64,000 nt of DNA from assembly GCF_900103505.1 (NCBI RefSeq), contig NZ_FNIA01000005.1, positions 124,001 through 188,000 of the forward strand, in the 5' to 3' direction. Under the pieces are notes generated by a model, which ran no database searches, was not told the origin of the DNA, and saw only the letters and a program-made list of their open reading frames with translations. Every line of letters starts with the position of its first letter. Positions within the stretch are counted from its first letter, which is position 1. This document shows, in pieces, positions 20,149 to 23,720 of the stretch. The position numbers were made by a program, and so were the translations under genes. The stretch comes from Haloarchaeobius iranensis (lineage in GTDB: Archaea; Halobacteriota; Halobacteria; Halobacteriales; Natrialbaceae).

Positions 20149-20243
20149 TAGACGGATAGCCGTCTATAGTCGGTACATATCCGGTGATTGCCAGTAGTGC
20201 TGGAACGTAGACGAGGGGCGCGGGCAGTACATCTATTATAAAG
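20149..20243 (+). promoter_or_regulatory. Promoter region of the PhoX-like gene
   Basis: A perfect 7-base inverted repeat TAGACGG-ATAG-CCGTCTA lies at 20149-20166. A clear TATA-like box, TATTATAAAG, lies at 20234-20243, about 37 bases before the ATG at 20280. This is much more A/T-rich than its surroundings. The inverted repeat may be an operator; phosphate control would make sense for a phosphatase but is not shown. Confidence 0.5.
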
Positions 20244-20279: not shown

Positions 20280-22910
20280 ATGGAGTTCACCAGACGGAAC
20301 CTGATGGCGTCGTCCGTGGCCGCTGCACTGGGAGCCAGCGTCGCGGGGAAGGCGACGGCCGTCGTCGACGATCCGGACACACCGGGGGCACCGAGCGTGA
20401 AGGGGGAGCTGAAGCGGTTCTCGACGACCGCACTGGGGGCGGAGGTGACCGGTCCCTACGTCTTCGCGGACGGGTCGCTGCTGTACAGCCTGCAGCACCC
20501 GAGCCGCGACAACGAACCGCCGTTCGACCGGGCGGGGGTCGGCTACTTCAGCGGGTTCCAGTTCGAGATGGACGGGAGCAACGGCGACTTCGAGGAGCTG
20601 TCGATTCCGGAGACAGAAGCCGAGCGCGGGGCGGTCCGCTCCGGCGAGGGCGAGTGGGTCCCCCTCGCACAGGAGGAGGACGAGATACGGGGCGGCGCTG
20701 AGCTGCTCGGCGTCTCCCAGACACCCGACGGGACGAACATCTCGCGCGAGAACTTCGCGGGCACCCAGTACGGGAACGCGGGGTACAACCCGGACTGCAA
20801 CCAGTTCGTGGCGACGAACGACGAGGGCACCGAGGGCTACCTGTTCACCAACTGGGAGAACAGTCCGGGCAACGTCTCGCGGGTCCCACTCAGTCAGGAC
20901 GACGACGGCGAGTGGAGCGCGGACCTGGAGAACGCGATGAACCTCTCGAACACCGAGGCCTTCCGCGAGGTCGGCGGCACGCGCATCAACTGCTACGGCG
21001 ACCTGAGTCCGTGGGGGACGATGCTCTCCTCCGAGGAGAACTACGCCCATCCGCGCGTCTCGATGACCTCGACCGTCGGCGACATCGCCGAGGCGGGGAC
21101 CGGACGGGGCCACGTCGGCGCGTGCCAGTTCTGGAACCGCCCGAACCCGAGCGAGATTCAGGGCGCGGTCGACGACTACTACGGGGAGAACTCGTGGGAC
21201 ATCCAGGGTTACTGGGCGCTCACCGGCGTCGAGTTCCTCGCGTACTACCTCGGCGCGGAGCCGGTCGACCAGACCGGTGGCAACGAGCAGAACACCACGA
21301 ACCCGATCGGCGACGTCTACCCGAATCCGTACCGCTACGGCTACCACGTCGACATCCGCGAGCCCGCAGCCGACACGCCCCAGCCCGTGAAGTACTACGT
21401 CATGGGCCGGGCGGCGTGGGAGGCCCCCGACGTGCAGGGCGACAGGAAGACCGTCTACGAGTGCTCCGACGGCGACAGCAAGGGCATCTACAAGTTCGTC
21501 GCCGACGAGCCCATCGACAGCTACGAGGACCCGATGGACGTTGCGGGCACGCTGTACGCGCCGAAGATCACCAACGGGGCGGCCGCCGCCGGTGGCTCGC
21601 CGGCGGAGGTCCCGCTGCACGTCGACTGGCTCGAACTCGGCCACGCGACCAACGCCGAGGTCGCCTCGTGGATCGCCGAGTACGACGACGTGACCCAGGA
21701 GACGTACTTGGAGACCCACGCGGAGACCGACTGGACCGAGGACCTCGCAGGGGCCATCGCGGAGGCCGACCAGACCGTCGTCGAGGAGGGGAACCGGAAC
21801 TACATCACGAACGAGGAGATCCTCGCGTGGGCCGCCCAGTACGAGAGCGAGGGCCCCGACGGCGTCGACGAGGAGTTGCGTCGCGTCCCCTTCCTCGAGA
21901 CCCGCGCCGCCGCCAAGGAGGTCGGCGCGTCCATCGAGTTCAACAAGGCCGAGGGCGTCGACAGCCGCGACGACGCCGGCCCCGGCGACTTCGTCTACTT
22001 CGGCATCTCGGAGTTCAACGACGACCTCGCGAACGACGTCGGCGACATCCAGCTCGACCGCGTCGACGGCGGTGTCGTCTACCGCGCCGAGCTCGAGCGC
22101 AACTACGATGTCTCCGTGCTGGAGCCGGTCATCACCGGGCCCGACGCGAGCGACCCGGCCGACGTGGCCGACGACGCGCTCGTCAACGTCGACAACGTCT
22201 ACGTGATGGACGACGGTCGCGTGCTCTGCTGCGAGGACGCCGACCAGTTCGGTCGCTCGTACCCGAACGACGCGCTGTACGTCTACCAGCCCGACGTCAT
22301 CCTCGACGTCCAGTCCATCGCGGTCCAGCACGGGGCGACCGGCAGCGCCGACCTGCTCGTCTCCTCGCTCCCGGCAGGCGTCTCGGGCGGGGACCTGACC
22401 GTCACGGTCACCGAACCCGACGTGGCGAGCATCACCGGCGTCGAGTTCCCCGACGACGTGGGGCTGACGGAGGCCACCGTCAGCGACGACGGCTCGTCGG
22501 TCGAGATCCGCTTCTCGGACGTCGACCGTGCCGTCCAGCCCGGCGAGATAGACGTGCCCCTCGCCTCGCTCGATATCCTCGCGGAGAACACGGGGACGAG
22601 CGACCTCGCTGTCGAGGTCACCCAGCTCGACGACGATGAGGGGAGCCCCATCGAGGCGACCACCCGCAAGGGCATCGTGGTCGCCGGGCCGCCGCCGGTC
22701 GTCGGCCCGAACCCGCCGACAGACCCCGACGGCGACGGCCTGTACGAGGACGTCAACGGCAACGGGCAGGTCGACTACGACGACATCGTCGTCCTGTTCC
22801 AGCAGTTCGACTCCGACAGCGTCCAGCTGAACCCGGCGGCCTACGACTTCAACGAGAACGGCGAACTCGACTACGACGACATCGTGACGCTGTACGAGGA
22901 AGTGAACTGA
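20280..22910 (+). CDS. Secreted PhoX-type phosphatase with cohesin-like and dockerin modules
   Basis: An 876-residue exported protein. MEFTRRNLMASSVAAALGAS is a Tat signal. Residues about 45-670 belong to the PhoX/DUF839 family (calcium/iron-dependent alkaline phosphatase): INCYGDLSPWGTMLSSEEN at 236-254 matches the PhoX signature, with Cys238 and Glu252/253. Residues about 675-800 are a cohesin-like beta-sandwich (SADLLVSSLPAGVSGGDLTV, ISFSD-like VEIRFSDVDRAVQPGEIDV). Residues 815-876 are a type I dockerin with two EF-hand-like loops, DVNGNGQVDYDDIVVLF from 824 and DFNENGELDYDDIVTLY from 856. A phosphatase with both halves of a cohesin-dockerin pair is unusual. The next gene, 21 bases on, encodes another cohesin-like domain on a membrane anchor, so the enzyme may be held at the surface. 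Confidence 0.85.
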   Translation: MEFTRRNLMASSVAAALGASVAGKATAVVDDPDTPGAPSVKGELKRFSTTALGAEVTGPYVFADGSLLYSLQHPSRDNEPPFDRAGVGYFSGFQFEMDGSNGDFEELSIPETEAERGAVRSGEGEWVPLAQEEDEIRGGAELLGVSQTPDGTNISRENFAGTQYGNAGYNPDCNQFVATNDEGTEGYLFTNWENSPGNVSRVPLSQDDDGEWSADLENAMNLSNTEAFREVGGTRINCYGDLSPWGTMLSSEENYAHPRVSMTSTVGDIAEAGTGRGHVGACQFWNRPNPSEIQGAVDDYYGENSWDIQGYWALTGVEFLAYYLGAEPVDQTGGNEQNTTNPIGDVYPNPYRYGYHVDIREPAADTPQPVKYYVMGRAAWEAPDVQGDRKTVYECSDGDSKGIYKFVADEPIDSYEDPMDVAGTLYAPKITNGAAAAGGSPAEVPLHVDWLELGHATNAEVASWIAEYDDVTQETYLETHAETDWTEDLAGAIAEADQTVVEEGNRNYITNEEILAWAAQYESEGPDGVDEELRRVPFLETRAAAKEVGASIEFNKAEGVDSRDDAGPGDFVYFGISEFNDDLANDVGDIQLDRVDGGVVYRAELERNYDVSVLEPVITGPDASDPADVADDALVNVDNVYVMDDGRVLCCEDADQFGRSYPNDALYVYQPDVILDVQSIAVQHGATGSADLLVSSLPAGVSGGDLTVTVTEPDVASITGVEFPDDVGLTEATVSDDGSSVEIRFSDVDRAVQPGEIDVPLASLDILAENTGTSDLAVEVTQLDDDEGSPIEATTRKGIVVAGPPPVVGPNPPTDPDGDGLYEDVNGNGQVDYDDIVVLFQQFDSDSVQLNPAAYDFNENGELDYDDIVTLYEEVN

Positions 22911-22931
22911 CGCACCAGCGTACCCCTACCC

Positions 22932-23720
22932 ATGCCCTCGAACACCTCCCGTGTGACGCGTGACGTCGCGTTCACCGTGACGGTCACGACACTGGCGCTC
23001 GCGGTACTCACGCTTGCAGGTCTGGCCCTCAGCGGAACGGTCGCGGCCGTCCCGGGCGACTCGACCGCCGCCCAGCCCGCGGAGCCGACGCTGCACTTCG
23101 TCGGTGGCACCGTCAGCGACGACGGGACCACCGCGGTCGACGTCGTGCTCTCGTCCGCCCCGGACGGCCTCGCGGGCTACTACCTCCGCGTCGCCGTCGT
23201 GGACGCCGAGGTCGCCCGCATCGAGGGTGCCAGCTACCCCGACCGATTCGCGATGACGACCGACCCCGCCGTCACCGACGACGGTCGCTCGGTCGCCCTC
23301 GAGGCGGCCGACCTGAACCGGTCGGTCCAGCCCGGGGCGAGCAACGTGACCCTCGCGACCCTCTCGGTCGCCGGGATCGACCCCGGCGAGGTCCGCGTCA
23401 CCGTCGAGCCGGTGCAGTTCGACGCCGACGACGGTCGCGGATTCGAGCCCGCGACCGAGCCCGGTGTCGTCACGGTGACTACCGCGCACGCCACCGGGAC
23501 CCCCGTCGAGGACGCCGACGGAAGCACGGCGACGGCGGGTGTCCGACCCAACGCCGCGCCGCCCGGCACCGACGCCGACCCGGCGAGCGCCGACGGCCCG
23601 GACGACGCACCGACTGACGGTGGGTCGTCCCCCGACGGCGGTGGCGTCCCGACAATCGTGCTCGCGGCAGTCGGGGCTGCGTTCCTGGTCGTCGGGCTCC
23701 TCGCGGGTCGGCGACTGTAG
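22932..23720 (+). CDS. Membrane-anchored cohesin-like surface protein
   Basis: A 262-residue protein with an N-terminal hydrophobic signal (TVTVTTLALAVLTLAGLALS), a cohesin-like beta-sandwich at about 50-170, a Thr/Asp/Pro/Gly linker, and a C-terminal span VPTIVLAAVGAAFLVVGLLA ending GRRL. The domain matches the one in the preceding PhoX-like protein: TTAVDVVLSSAPDGLAGYYL, VSDDG-like VTDDGRSVALEAADLNRSVQ and QPGASNVTLATLSVAG. It is in the same operon, 21 bases after that gene. It could act as a minimal anchoring scaffoldin that binds the dockerin of its neighbour. No PGF-CTERM sorting motif is visible, so anchoring is through the C-terminal span. Confidence 0.75.
   Translation: MPSNTSRVTRDVAFTVTVTTLALAVLTLAGLALSGTVAAVPGDSTAAQPAEPTLHFVGGTVSDDGTTAVDVVLSSAPDGLAGYYLRVAVVDAEVARIEGASYPDRFAMTTDPAVTDDGRSVALEAADLNRSVQPGASNVTLATLSVAGIDPGEVRVTVEPVQFDADDGRGFEPATEPGVVTVTTAHATGTPVEDADGSTATAGVRPNAAPPGTDADPASADGPDDAPTDGGSSPDGGGVPTIVLAAVGAAFLVVGLLAGRRL

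Follow-up and report, generated by a model that had tools for sequence, protein, structure and literature searches.

The locus raises the question of whether a haloarchaeal phosphatase that carries both a cohesin-like domain and a dockerin, and whose gene is followed by that of a membrane-anchored cohesin-like protein, is held at the cell surface by these modules and linked through them into larger assemblies. In the window, i.e., the whole 64,000-nucleotide stretch of Haloarchaeobius iranensis DNA that was analyzed, the two genes lie on the forward strand with 21 nt between the stop of the first and the start of the second. We consider it likely that they form a cohesin-dockerin unit for displaying a PhoX-type phosphatase exported by the Tat route, in which a second socket would permit a chain to form without a scaffoldin; the original prediction, taken as a whole, is partly supported.

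Organization of the locus

The features of the unit are as follows.

20236..20242, + strand: TATA-box-like TTATAAA, possible promoter of the two-gene unit (by eye; 37 nt before the start codon)
20280..22910, + strand: PhoX-cohesin-dockerin gene, 876 aa (ORF, Pfam; start MxEFTRR conserved in orthologues)
20280..20360, + strand: twin-arginine (Tat) type signal peptide MEFTRRNLMASSVAAALGASVAGKATA (sequence; the two arginines do not vary among orthologues)
20370..22289, + strand: PhoX catalytic beta-propeller domain, residues 31-670 (PF05787; PDB PhoX 3zwu)
22293..22688, + strand: enzyme-borne cohesin-fold domain coh1, residues 672-803 (AlphaFold2 model; PDB cohesins, Z up to 16.4)
22689..22721, + strand: short Pro/Gly-rich linker GPPPVVGPNPP, joining coh1 to the dockerin
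22722..22907, + strand: type I dockerin, residues 815-876 (PF00404; near-invariant calcium loops at 22749-22784 and 22845-22880)
22932..23720, + strand: membrane-anchored cohesin gene, 262 aa (ORF; 21 nt 3' of the enzyme stop)
23082..23483, + strand: anchor cohesin-fold domain coh2, residues 51-184 (AlphaFold2 model; PDB cohesins, Z up to 15.3)
23484..23645, + strand: low-complexity linker rich in D, G, S, T and P (sequence)
23649..23708, + strand: C-terminal membrane span, then RRL; possible archaeosortase-type anchor (sequence)

A promoter and terminator scan, which used bacterial-type consensus only and is uninformative for archaea, detected nothing resembling a terminator between the two genes or behind them. 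The second protein ends in a clear C-terminal membrane span (IVLAAVGAAFLVVGLLAGRR). Of the 29 anchors scanned (that of the window and its orthologues), nine matched the PGF-CTERM model TIGR04126, and the same scan found no PGF-CTERM signal in the window's own anchor.

The putative exported phosphatase

The 876-aa protein begins with the twin-arginine stretch MEFTRRNLMASS and continues through the PhoX domain, a cohesin-fold domain and the Pro/Gly linker to the type I dockerin. The Pfam match to PF05787 covers residues 219-656 and scores 83.7 bits against a cut-off of 24, and the PhoX of Pseudomonas fluorescens (PDB 3zwu), a member of the same family, was matched at E 9e-07 with the single sequence and 3.8e-10 with a profile. 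Cys238 and Glu381 align with Cys179 and Glu273 of 3zwu, which we take to be ligands of its metal centre, and both are invariant among relatives. The propeller of the window enzyme appears circularly permuted relative to 3zwu, and the solved chain, unlike the window enzyme, lists neither a cohesin nor a dockerin.

Dockerin and cohesin-fold domains

Dockerin_1 (PF00404) was matched at residues 822-872, with a score of 22.9 bits in the whole protein, exactly at the curated cut-off. The score rose to 27.8 bits when the genome as a whole was scanned and to 28.4 bits for the segment alone, and Dockerin_1 was also matched in 24 of the 24 relatives scanned. The calcium loops begin at D824 (DVNGNGQVDYDD) and D856 (DFNENGELDYDD), exactly where the original prediction of a PhoX-type protein with a C-terminal type I dockerin had placed them. 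Both are complete, reading D-V-N-G-N-G-Q-V-D-Y-D-D and D-F-N-E-N-G-E-L-D-Y-D-D, with ligands at 1, 3, 5, 9 and 12, and the ligand positions are invariant or nearly so across relatives. In the AlphaFold2 model of coh1 with the dockerin (pLDDT 88), each loop is followed by a helix (170-178 and 202-212), completing the duplicated arrangement. Against the PDB, the dockerin profile matched 2mte and 1daq, both dockerins, at E 4e-4, with EF-hand proteins scoring equally well or better. The end of the cohesin is separated from the first calcium loop by 21-27 residues (43 sequences).

Neither coh1 nor coh2 was matched by Pfam Cohesin PF00963 or NCBIfam, and their identity as cohesins therefore rests on structure and profile comparison; a PDB sequence search with the anchor-cohesin profile returned no cohesin match. 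Both domains are predicted with confidence to adopt the nine-stranded cohesin fold. The coh2 model (pLDDT 94, pTM 0.86) is a nine-strand sandwich, and the top listed PDB matches to the coh1 (Z 16.4) and coh2 (Z 15.3) models are all cohesins, the archaeal 2xdh included; the Foldseek and VIA matches to the coh1-dockerin model span its cohesin part only. The cohesin fold that had been set as a test was thus recovered in both predicted structures (Z 15-16). The resemblance between the domain before the dockerin and that on the downstream membrane protein, also part of the prediction, was borne out by hhalign (99.9%, E 1.9e-31), which establishes their homology and rules out chance. The anchor cohesins are further related to Pfam-detected cohesins of the same genome (hhalign 96.4%, E 1e-9). 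The expected dockerin-binding face (strands 8-3-6-5) is no more conserved than the back face (p 0.13-0.45).

Conservation of the gene pair

The cohesin/dockerin gene pair is real and far beyond chance, since it is kept in dozens of species. Absence from all related genomes, which would have counted against the original prediction, was not observed: a membrane cohesin lies directly 3' of 37 of 43 dockerin-bearing PhoX genes and of none of the 40 dockerin-less ones (Fisher p 1.9e-17). On the PhoX tree, the presence of the dockerin switches 8 times; in 7.1 of 8 independent pairs the anchor gene follows suit, and in none does it change in the other direction (tree-controlled sign test, median p 0.016). 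This one-way association lends good support to the proposal that the phosphatase is retained at the cell surface. The joint gains and losses may be due in part to physical linkage, because one recombination of the 3' end of the gene can move both elements. In the PhoX of Haloarcula pellucida, the cohesin scores low and the dockerin and anchor are both lost, and the enzyme cohesin is kept in 43 of 43 dockerin-bearing copies. With the PhoX distance controlled for, distances between dockerins correlate with those between anchor cohesins (partial r 0.46, p 0.0005) and more strongly with those between the cohesins borne by the enzymes themselves (partial r 0.58).

PhoX-cohesin-dockerin enzymes occur without a same-family cohesin outside those enzymes in Halogranum amylolyticum, Halocatena marina, Halegenticoccus tardaugens and Halalkalicoccus paucihalophilus, and a PhoD version occurs in the same situation in one further genome (G007); therefore, the anchor is not always needed. 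The PhoX relatives found in Haloferax and Haladaptatus lack the cohesin-dockerin module, so surface docking would be optional for the enzyme.

The module on other enzymes

The enzyme-anchor gene pair is spread across many haloarchaeal families, and the cohesin-dockerin module is also found on at least four other enzyme families, namely PhoD, 5'-nucleotidase, an SNase-type nuclease and a choice-of-anchor I protein. These enzymes are often unlinked to any anchor gene, and one genome has four module-bearing enzymes and a single PhoX-type anchor. Of the 9 genomes in which a PhoD-cohesin-dockerin gene is unlinked, 8 also have a strong PhoX-type anchor, compared with 37 of the 145 genomes in the class sample that served as the baseline (binomial p 1e-4), a comparison that is free of gene linkage. 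Dockerins of different enzyme families are 68.6% alike within a genome versus 64.0% between genomes (p 2e-4), and enzyme cohesins of different families are not more alike within than between genomes (p 0.10). The genome of the window also holds an SNase-type module-bearing nuclease with its own anchor, and an S8 subtilase-Cohesin-Dockerin gene with a cohesin gene next in line, in which every domain is detected by Pfam. Neither the subtilase version nor the sharing of the module among enzyme families was part of the original prediction.

Scaffoldins with up to eight cohesins were observed in relatives amid GH5-dockerin genes, and these go unmentioned in the published description of what is probably the same cluster. 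In relatives, the co-occurrence of proteins that have several cohesins with series of dockerin-bearing enzymes is best explained by docking.

Proposed assembly and alternative explanations

From these observations, we infer dockerin-cohesin binding, a preference among cohesins, chain growth, calcium dependence and phosphatase activity. The phosphatase would leave the cell by the Tat route, after which calcium would fold its C-terminal dockerin, and the dockerin would plug into coh2 on the membrane-anchored product of the downstream gene. The docked enzyme would thereby remain on the outside of the membrane rather than be lost to the brine. The enzyme's own cohesin would be a second socket on the same molecule, able to take the dockerin of another copy or that of PhoD, 5'-nucleotidase, nuclease or choice-of-anchor I protein, and a short chain of phosphorus-scavenging enzymes could grow from one anchor with no scaffoldin. 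The linking of enzyme copies into chains, which the original prediction had raised, would fit because a cohesin is borne by the enzyme itself, anchorless genomes keep the cohesin-dockerin tandem and several such enzymes may share one PhoX-type anchor. It is possible, though somewhat doubtful, that haloarchaea more generally build a surface phosphorus-scavenging complex by daisy-chaining plug-and-socket enzymes from one membrane cohesin, and that other haloarchaea apply similar parts to polysaccharides, by way of true scaffoldins that have as many as eight cohesins.

The presence of one anchor gene per PhoX unit could also reflect a one-to-one tether between dockerin and anchor cohesin, the enzyme cohesin being a relic without function from the duplication that gave rise to the anchor gene. 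A bare tether of this kind is unlikely, if not negligibly so, and its probability overlaps that of the display unit, since the tether step is common to both and the chain step alone is denied. Dockerin-bearing PhoX relatives always have the enzyme cohesin, as if the two were copied en bloc; however, the enzyme cohesin persists in every one of these enzymes, in the PhoD, 5'-nucleotidase and nuclease versions, and also where several enzymes face one PhoX-type anchor.

The closer tracking of dockerin distances with the enzyme's own cohesin counts against the preferred reading, as pairing in cis would give the same result. Together with the retention of the tandem in genomes that have no anchor, it points to a dockerin that pairs chiefly with the cohesin on the same polypeptide, or head to tail with that of a second copy, as a stability or dimerization device; the membrane cohesin would then play a minor or competing part. 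Such pairing is nevertheless improbable: the Pro/Gly linker of just 21-27 residues may fall short of the binding face, and neither the fact that the anchor gene never adjoins a dockerin-less PhoX nor the company of unlinked PhoD versions with the anchor is explained. Haloarchaeal dockerins have been interpreted as substrate-binding (PMC10963439, PMC13260240), and the modules may be passive, with the cohesin folds as beta-sandwich spacers and the dockerin as a calcium-stabilized or substrate-binding tail that binds no cohesin. The presumed binding face shows no conservation signal, and docking is itself something that we infer; yet the best structural matches are specifically cohesins, dockerin and anchored cohesin come and go together on the tree, and the dockerin-bearing enzymes that accompany multi-cohesin proteins in relatives are best explained by docking, which makes passive modules a poor prospect.

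Significance and comparison with known systems

The display unit would take cohesin-dockerin assembly beyond the breakdown of carbohydrates and into phosphorus acquisition, and it would represent a dedicated enzyme-anchor operon in archaea, an undescribed way to build cell-surface enzyme complexes. The original prediction knew of no such phosphatase assembly in haloarchaea, and a literature search, with the review of Peer et al. 2009 (PMC3035643) outside its scope, agrees. A role is offered for the unassigned small membrane proteins adjoining these enzymes, the published substrate-binding reading of haloarchaeal dockerins is challenged, and scaffold-free enzyme chaining becomes directly testable. 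The modules may also provide a salt-tolerant plug-and-socket pair for protein engineering.

As in bacterial cellulosomes with an anchoring scaffoldin, the dockerin is on the enzyme and the cohesin on a surface protein, but the unit in the window has one cohesin per protein and its enzyme carries both partners. Membership of a cellulosome was rejected, as the unit has no multi-cohesin scaffoldin and no carbohydrate-active enzyme, its catalytic domain being PhoX. Glycoside hydrolases of Clostridium perfringens (2jh2, 2w1n, 2vo8) also bear cohesin-like modules and are among the best structural matches; these are carbohydrate-active bacterial enzymes, whereas the enzymes here are archaeal phosphatases whose operon includes a membrane cohesin dedicated to them.

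Non-cellulosomal cohesin and dockerin proteins of Archaeoglobus fulgidus are attributed to Bayer (1999) in PMC9012536. The A. fulgidus cohesin 2xdh, likewise archaeal and non-cellulolytic, was matched in fold at Z 14.6-15.8. We take the cohesin and dockerin of A. fulgidus to be encoded by two neighbouring genes with no enzymatic role assigned; in contrast, the haloarchaeal module sits on recognized phosphorus-themed enzymes and its partner is membrane-anchored. In ANME archaea, S-layer proteins and the binding proteins of ABC transporters carry the dockerins, and a single protein contains as many as five cohesins (PMC9012536). These proteins are also archaeal and outside cellulose degradation, and surface attachment has been proposed for them, whereas the locus in the window is a compact two-gene enzyme-anchor unit.

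The two genes

Both open reading frames were confirmed at the positions originally predicted, and are as follows (window positions):

20280-22910: PhoX-cohesin-dockerin gene, 876 amino acids
22932-23720: membrane cohesin gene, product referred to here as the anchor

The larger protein has a twin-arginine start and a PhoX domain (PF05787, 83.7 bits; cut-off 24). After these comes a domain of ~130 residues unmatched by Pfam, which a short Pro/Gly linker joins to a type I dockerin. The dockerin loops start at D824 and D856, again as predicted, and are nearly invariant among relatives. The second gene begins 21 nt past the first, and its product opens with a signal segment and a second ~130-residue domain of the same kind, from which a low-complexity linker leads to a membrane span at the C-terminus. 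Residues 37-84 of the enzyme (window 20388-20531; GELKRFSTTALGAEVTGPY...QHPSRDN) align weakly to residues 510-559, at the C-terminus of bacterial PhoX, and the remainder aligns in the usual order; judged from this alignment, the PhoX propeller of haloarchaea may be a circular permutation.

Identity of the cohesin domains

Pfam Cohesin matched neither ~130-residue domain of the window, and no cohesin was found on comparing the anchor sequence profile with the PDB. The two domains are homologous to each other (hhalign 99.9%, E 1.9e-31), and the anchor profile matched a profile of five cohesins found by the Pfam model in the same genome with 96.4% probability. AlphaFold2, run with natural relatives as input (38 and 43 rows), modelled the anchor domain at pLDDT 94 and pTM 0.86 and the cohesin-dockerin tail of the enzyme at pLDDT 88. 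When these models were searched with Foldseek and VIA-align, all top rows for both domains were solved cohesins, the archaeal cohesin 2xdh among them (best match: Z 15.3, rmsd 2.4 A over 130 residues for the anchor; Z 16.4, rmsd 1.9 A over 128 residues for the enzyme). The cohesin fold first proposed by eye is hence confidently predicted, and both domains are taken to be divergent cohesins that escape the standard Pfam model.

Conservation of the gene pair

A total of 84,980 species genomes were scanned and the best 80 PhoX loci taken, which with the window gave 83 scorable PhoX genes. Cohesin plus dockerin was found on 43/83. The gene pair sought in haloarchaeal genomes was present: a membrane-span cohesin gene lies directly next in 37 of the 43 dockerin-bearing cases and in none of the 40 dockerin-less ones (Fisher p 1.9e-17). 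The dockerin-less enzymes terminate in tails that are short or low in complexity and lack a membrane span. Among the six dockerin-bearing exceptions, one belongs to a tandem pair, as its first copy, and both copies share one downstream anchor. Because the species are related, a PhoX tree was built, on which dockerin status changes at least eight times; the anchor moves with the dockerin in a mean of 7.1 of 8 independent pairs and in the opposite sense in 0 (sign test, median p 0.016). Haloarcula pellucida lacks both dockerin and anchor, and its enzyme cohesin has a low score. One recombination could move dockerin and anchor together, because the end of the gene coding for cohesin and dockerin adjoins the anchor gene. 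The conserved enzyme-anchor pair is real biology.

At one locus (L189:7200-8014, genome G153), the anchor gene, 3' of two tandem PhoX-cohesin-dockerin genes, lies in two frames, possibly through a frameshift or sequencing error. PhoX-cohesin-dockerin genes also occur at loci L091, L093, L094, L095 and L099, in genomes without a cohesin of the same family outside those enzymes.

Other enzymes with the same tail

The cohesin-dockerin tail was found on PhoX and on several other families:

Cohesin-dockerin enzymes and neighbouring cohesin (locus, positions)
L078, L179, L183: PhoD with the tail
L172, L184, L192: UshA-like 5'-nucleotidase with the tail
L081 (window's genome), L173: staphylococcal-nuclease-type protein with the tail
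L191, L193: choice-of-anchor I protein with the tail
L081:5747-9187 (window's genome, contig C49): the staphylococcal-nuclease-type protein, 1147 aa, with DUF4350/ABC_transp_aux, SNase, cohesin and dockerin
L081:4984-5739 (window's genome, contig C49): membrane cohesin, next after the 1147-aa protein
L082:5108-9292, L083:7783-11190 (window's genome): S8 subtilases with dockerin and cohesin

To free phosphate from extracellular DNA and nucleotides, a cell needs nuclease, nucleotidase and phosphatase steps, and from these families we infer a joint phosphate-scavenging role. One genome (G262) combines four such enzymes with a single PhoX-operon-type anchor.

The window's genome provides an internal control: on contig C53, an S8 subtilase carries Cohesin and Dockerin_1, both over the Pfam cut-offs, and is followed by a small cohesin gene; therefore, within one organism, the layout of enzyme, cohesin and dockerin plus separate cohesin also rests on domains that Pfam identifies with certainty. 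Of the L082 and L083 subtilases, one precedes a separate cohesin gene; for the other, the whole-genome scan gave no adjoining cohesin match.

Proposed mode of action

The architecture of the domains, their predicted fold and their association in genomes are observations. In the most likely mode of action, the dockerin would dock the Tat-exported phosphatase onto the membrane cohesin, and the enzyme's own cohesin would be left open to receive the dockerin of a further enzyme. Binding between dockerin and cohesin, its dependence on calcium, the choice of partner and the growth of chains are all inferred.

PhoD with the same tail is encoded elsewhere in the genome, and no adjacent anchor was found at the PhoD loci whose neighbours were read. 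Such PhoD occurs in 9/391 genomes of the class Halobacteria, and a strong PhoX-operon anchor is present in 8/9 of these versus 37/145 sampled genomes (binomial p ~1e-4, the species being not fully independent); this co-occurrence is free of the linkage caveat. Dockerins of different enzyme families resemble one another more within (68.6%) than between (64.0%) genomes (eight genomes, p 2e-4), while enzyme cohesins were not more alike within than between these (p 0.10). This pattern would be the expected product of a shared docking partner, and gene conversion could also give it.

Four species have the PhoX tandem and no anchor of this cohesin family, which suggests that the enzyme part has its own use, as though the tandem could function there by itself. 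Either self-chaining or cis pairing would provide such a use. With PhoX distance removed, dockerin distances correlate at r 0.58 with the enzyme's own cohesin and 0.46 with the anchor; the correlations do not separate self-chaining from cis pairing, and strand conservation compared on the cohesins gave no signal.

Scaffoldin-like clusters in relatives

Cluster features (locus, positions, genome and contig)
L086:9075-14381 (G029:C23): GH5 protein of 1768 aa, Tat-exported, containing eight cohesins
L086:14658-15434 (G029:C23): 258-aa membrane cohesin after the GH5 protein
L089:1-3521 (G019:C23): GH5 protein, truncated at the end of the contig, with five or more cohesins

Six of the eight cohesins in the 1768-aa protein are mutually 89-98% identical, and at least 12 dockerin ORFs follow the 258-aa membrane cohesin (L086, L087, L088). 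The ORF lengths of G029 (637, 610, 258, 759, 589, 741, 577, 815, 490 aa) match those of a Natronoglomus mannanivorans cluster in the literature (PMC10963439), in which a 1755-aa ORF at that place was described as a GH5/CBM6 endoglucanase and the 258-aa ORF as an S-layer glycoprotein, cohesins going unmentioned. This is a scaffoldin in an apparent haloarchaeal cellulosome cluster. The G019 locus, with a membrane cohesin of 209 aa and five dockerin ORFs close by, is a second scaffoldin-like cluster. Two- or three-cohesin proteins stand amid dockerin ORFs, of which one or more is a GH5, at L177 (G171; also with fn3, PKD and CBM5/12 domains), L180 (G172) and L187 (G141). All of these look like archaeal cellulosomes and merit separate study. 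Many dockerin matches and several two- or three-cohesin proteins were also seen in G039 (L090).

Comparison with known systems

No published description of a PhoX-cohesin-dockerin plus membrane cohesin unit was found in the literature searched. Two recent haloarchaeal papers take dockerins as substrate-binding (PMC10963439, PMC13260240), and a comparative study of how haloarchaea use cellulose makes no mention of cohesin or dockerin (PMC10267330). Among archaea, Archaeoglobus and ANME archaea are known to have cohesins and dockerins; a passage of PMC9012536 states, citing Peer 2009, that archaea with these modules lacked large scaffoldins, and the same source counts as many as five cohesins in a single ANME protein. 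The glycoside hydrolases of Clostridium perfringens are known examples of enzymes bearing cohesin-like modules, and these modules are among the best structural matches of the window cohesins.
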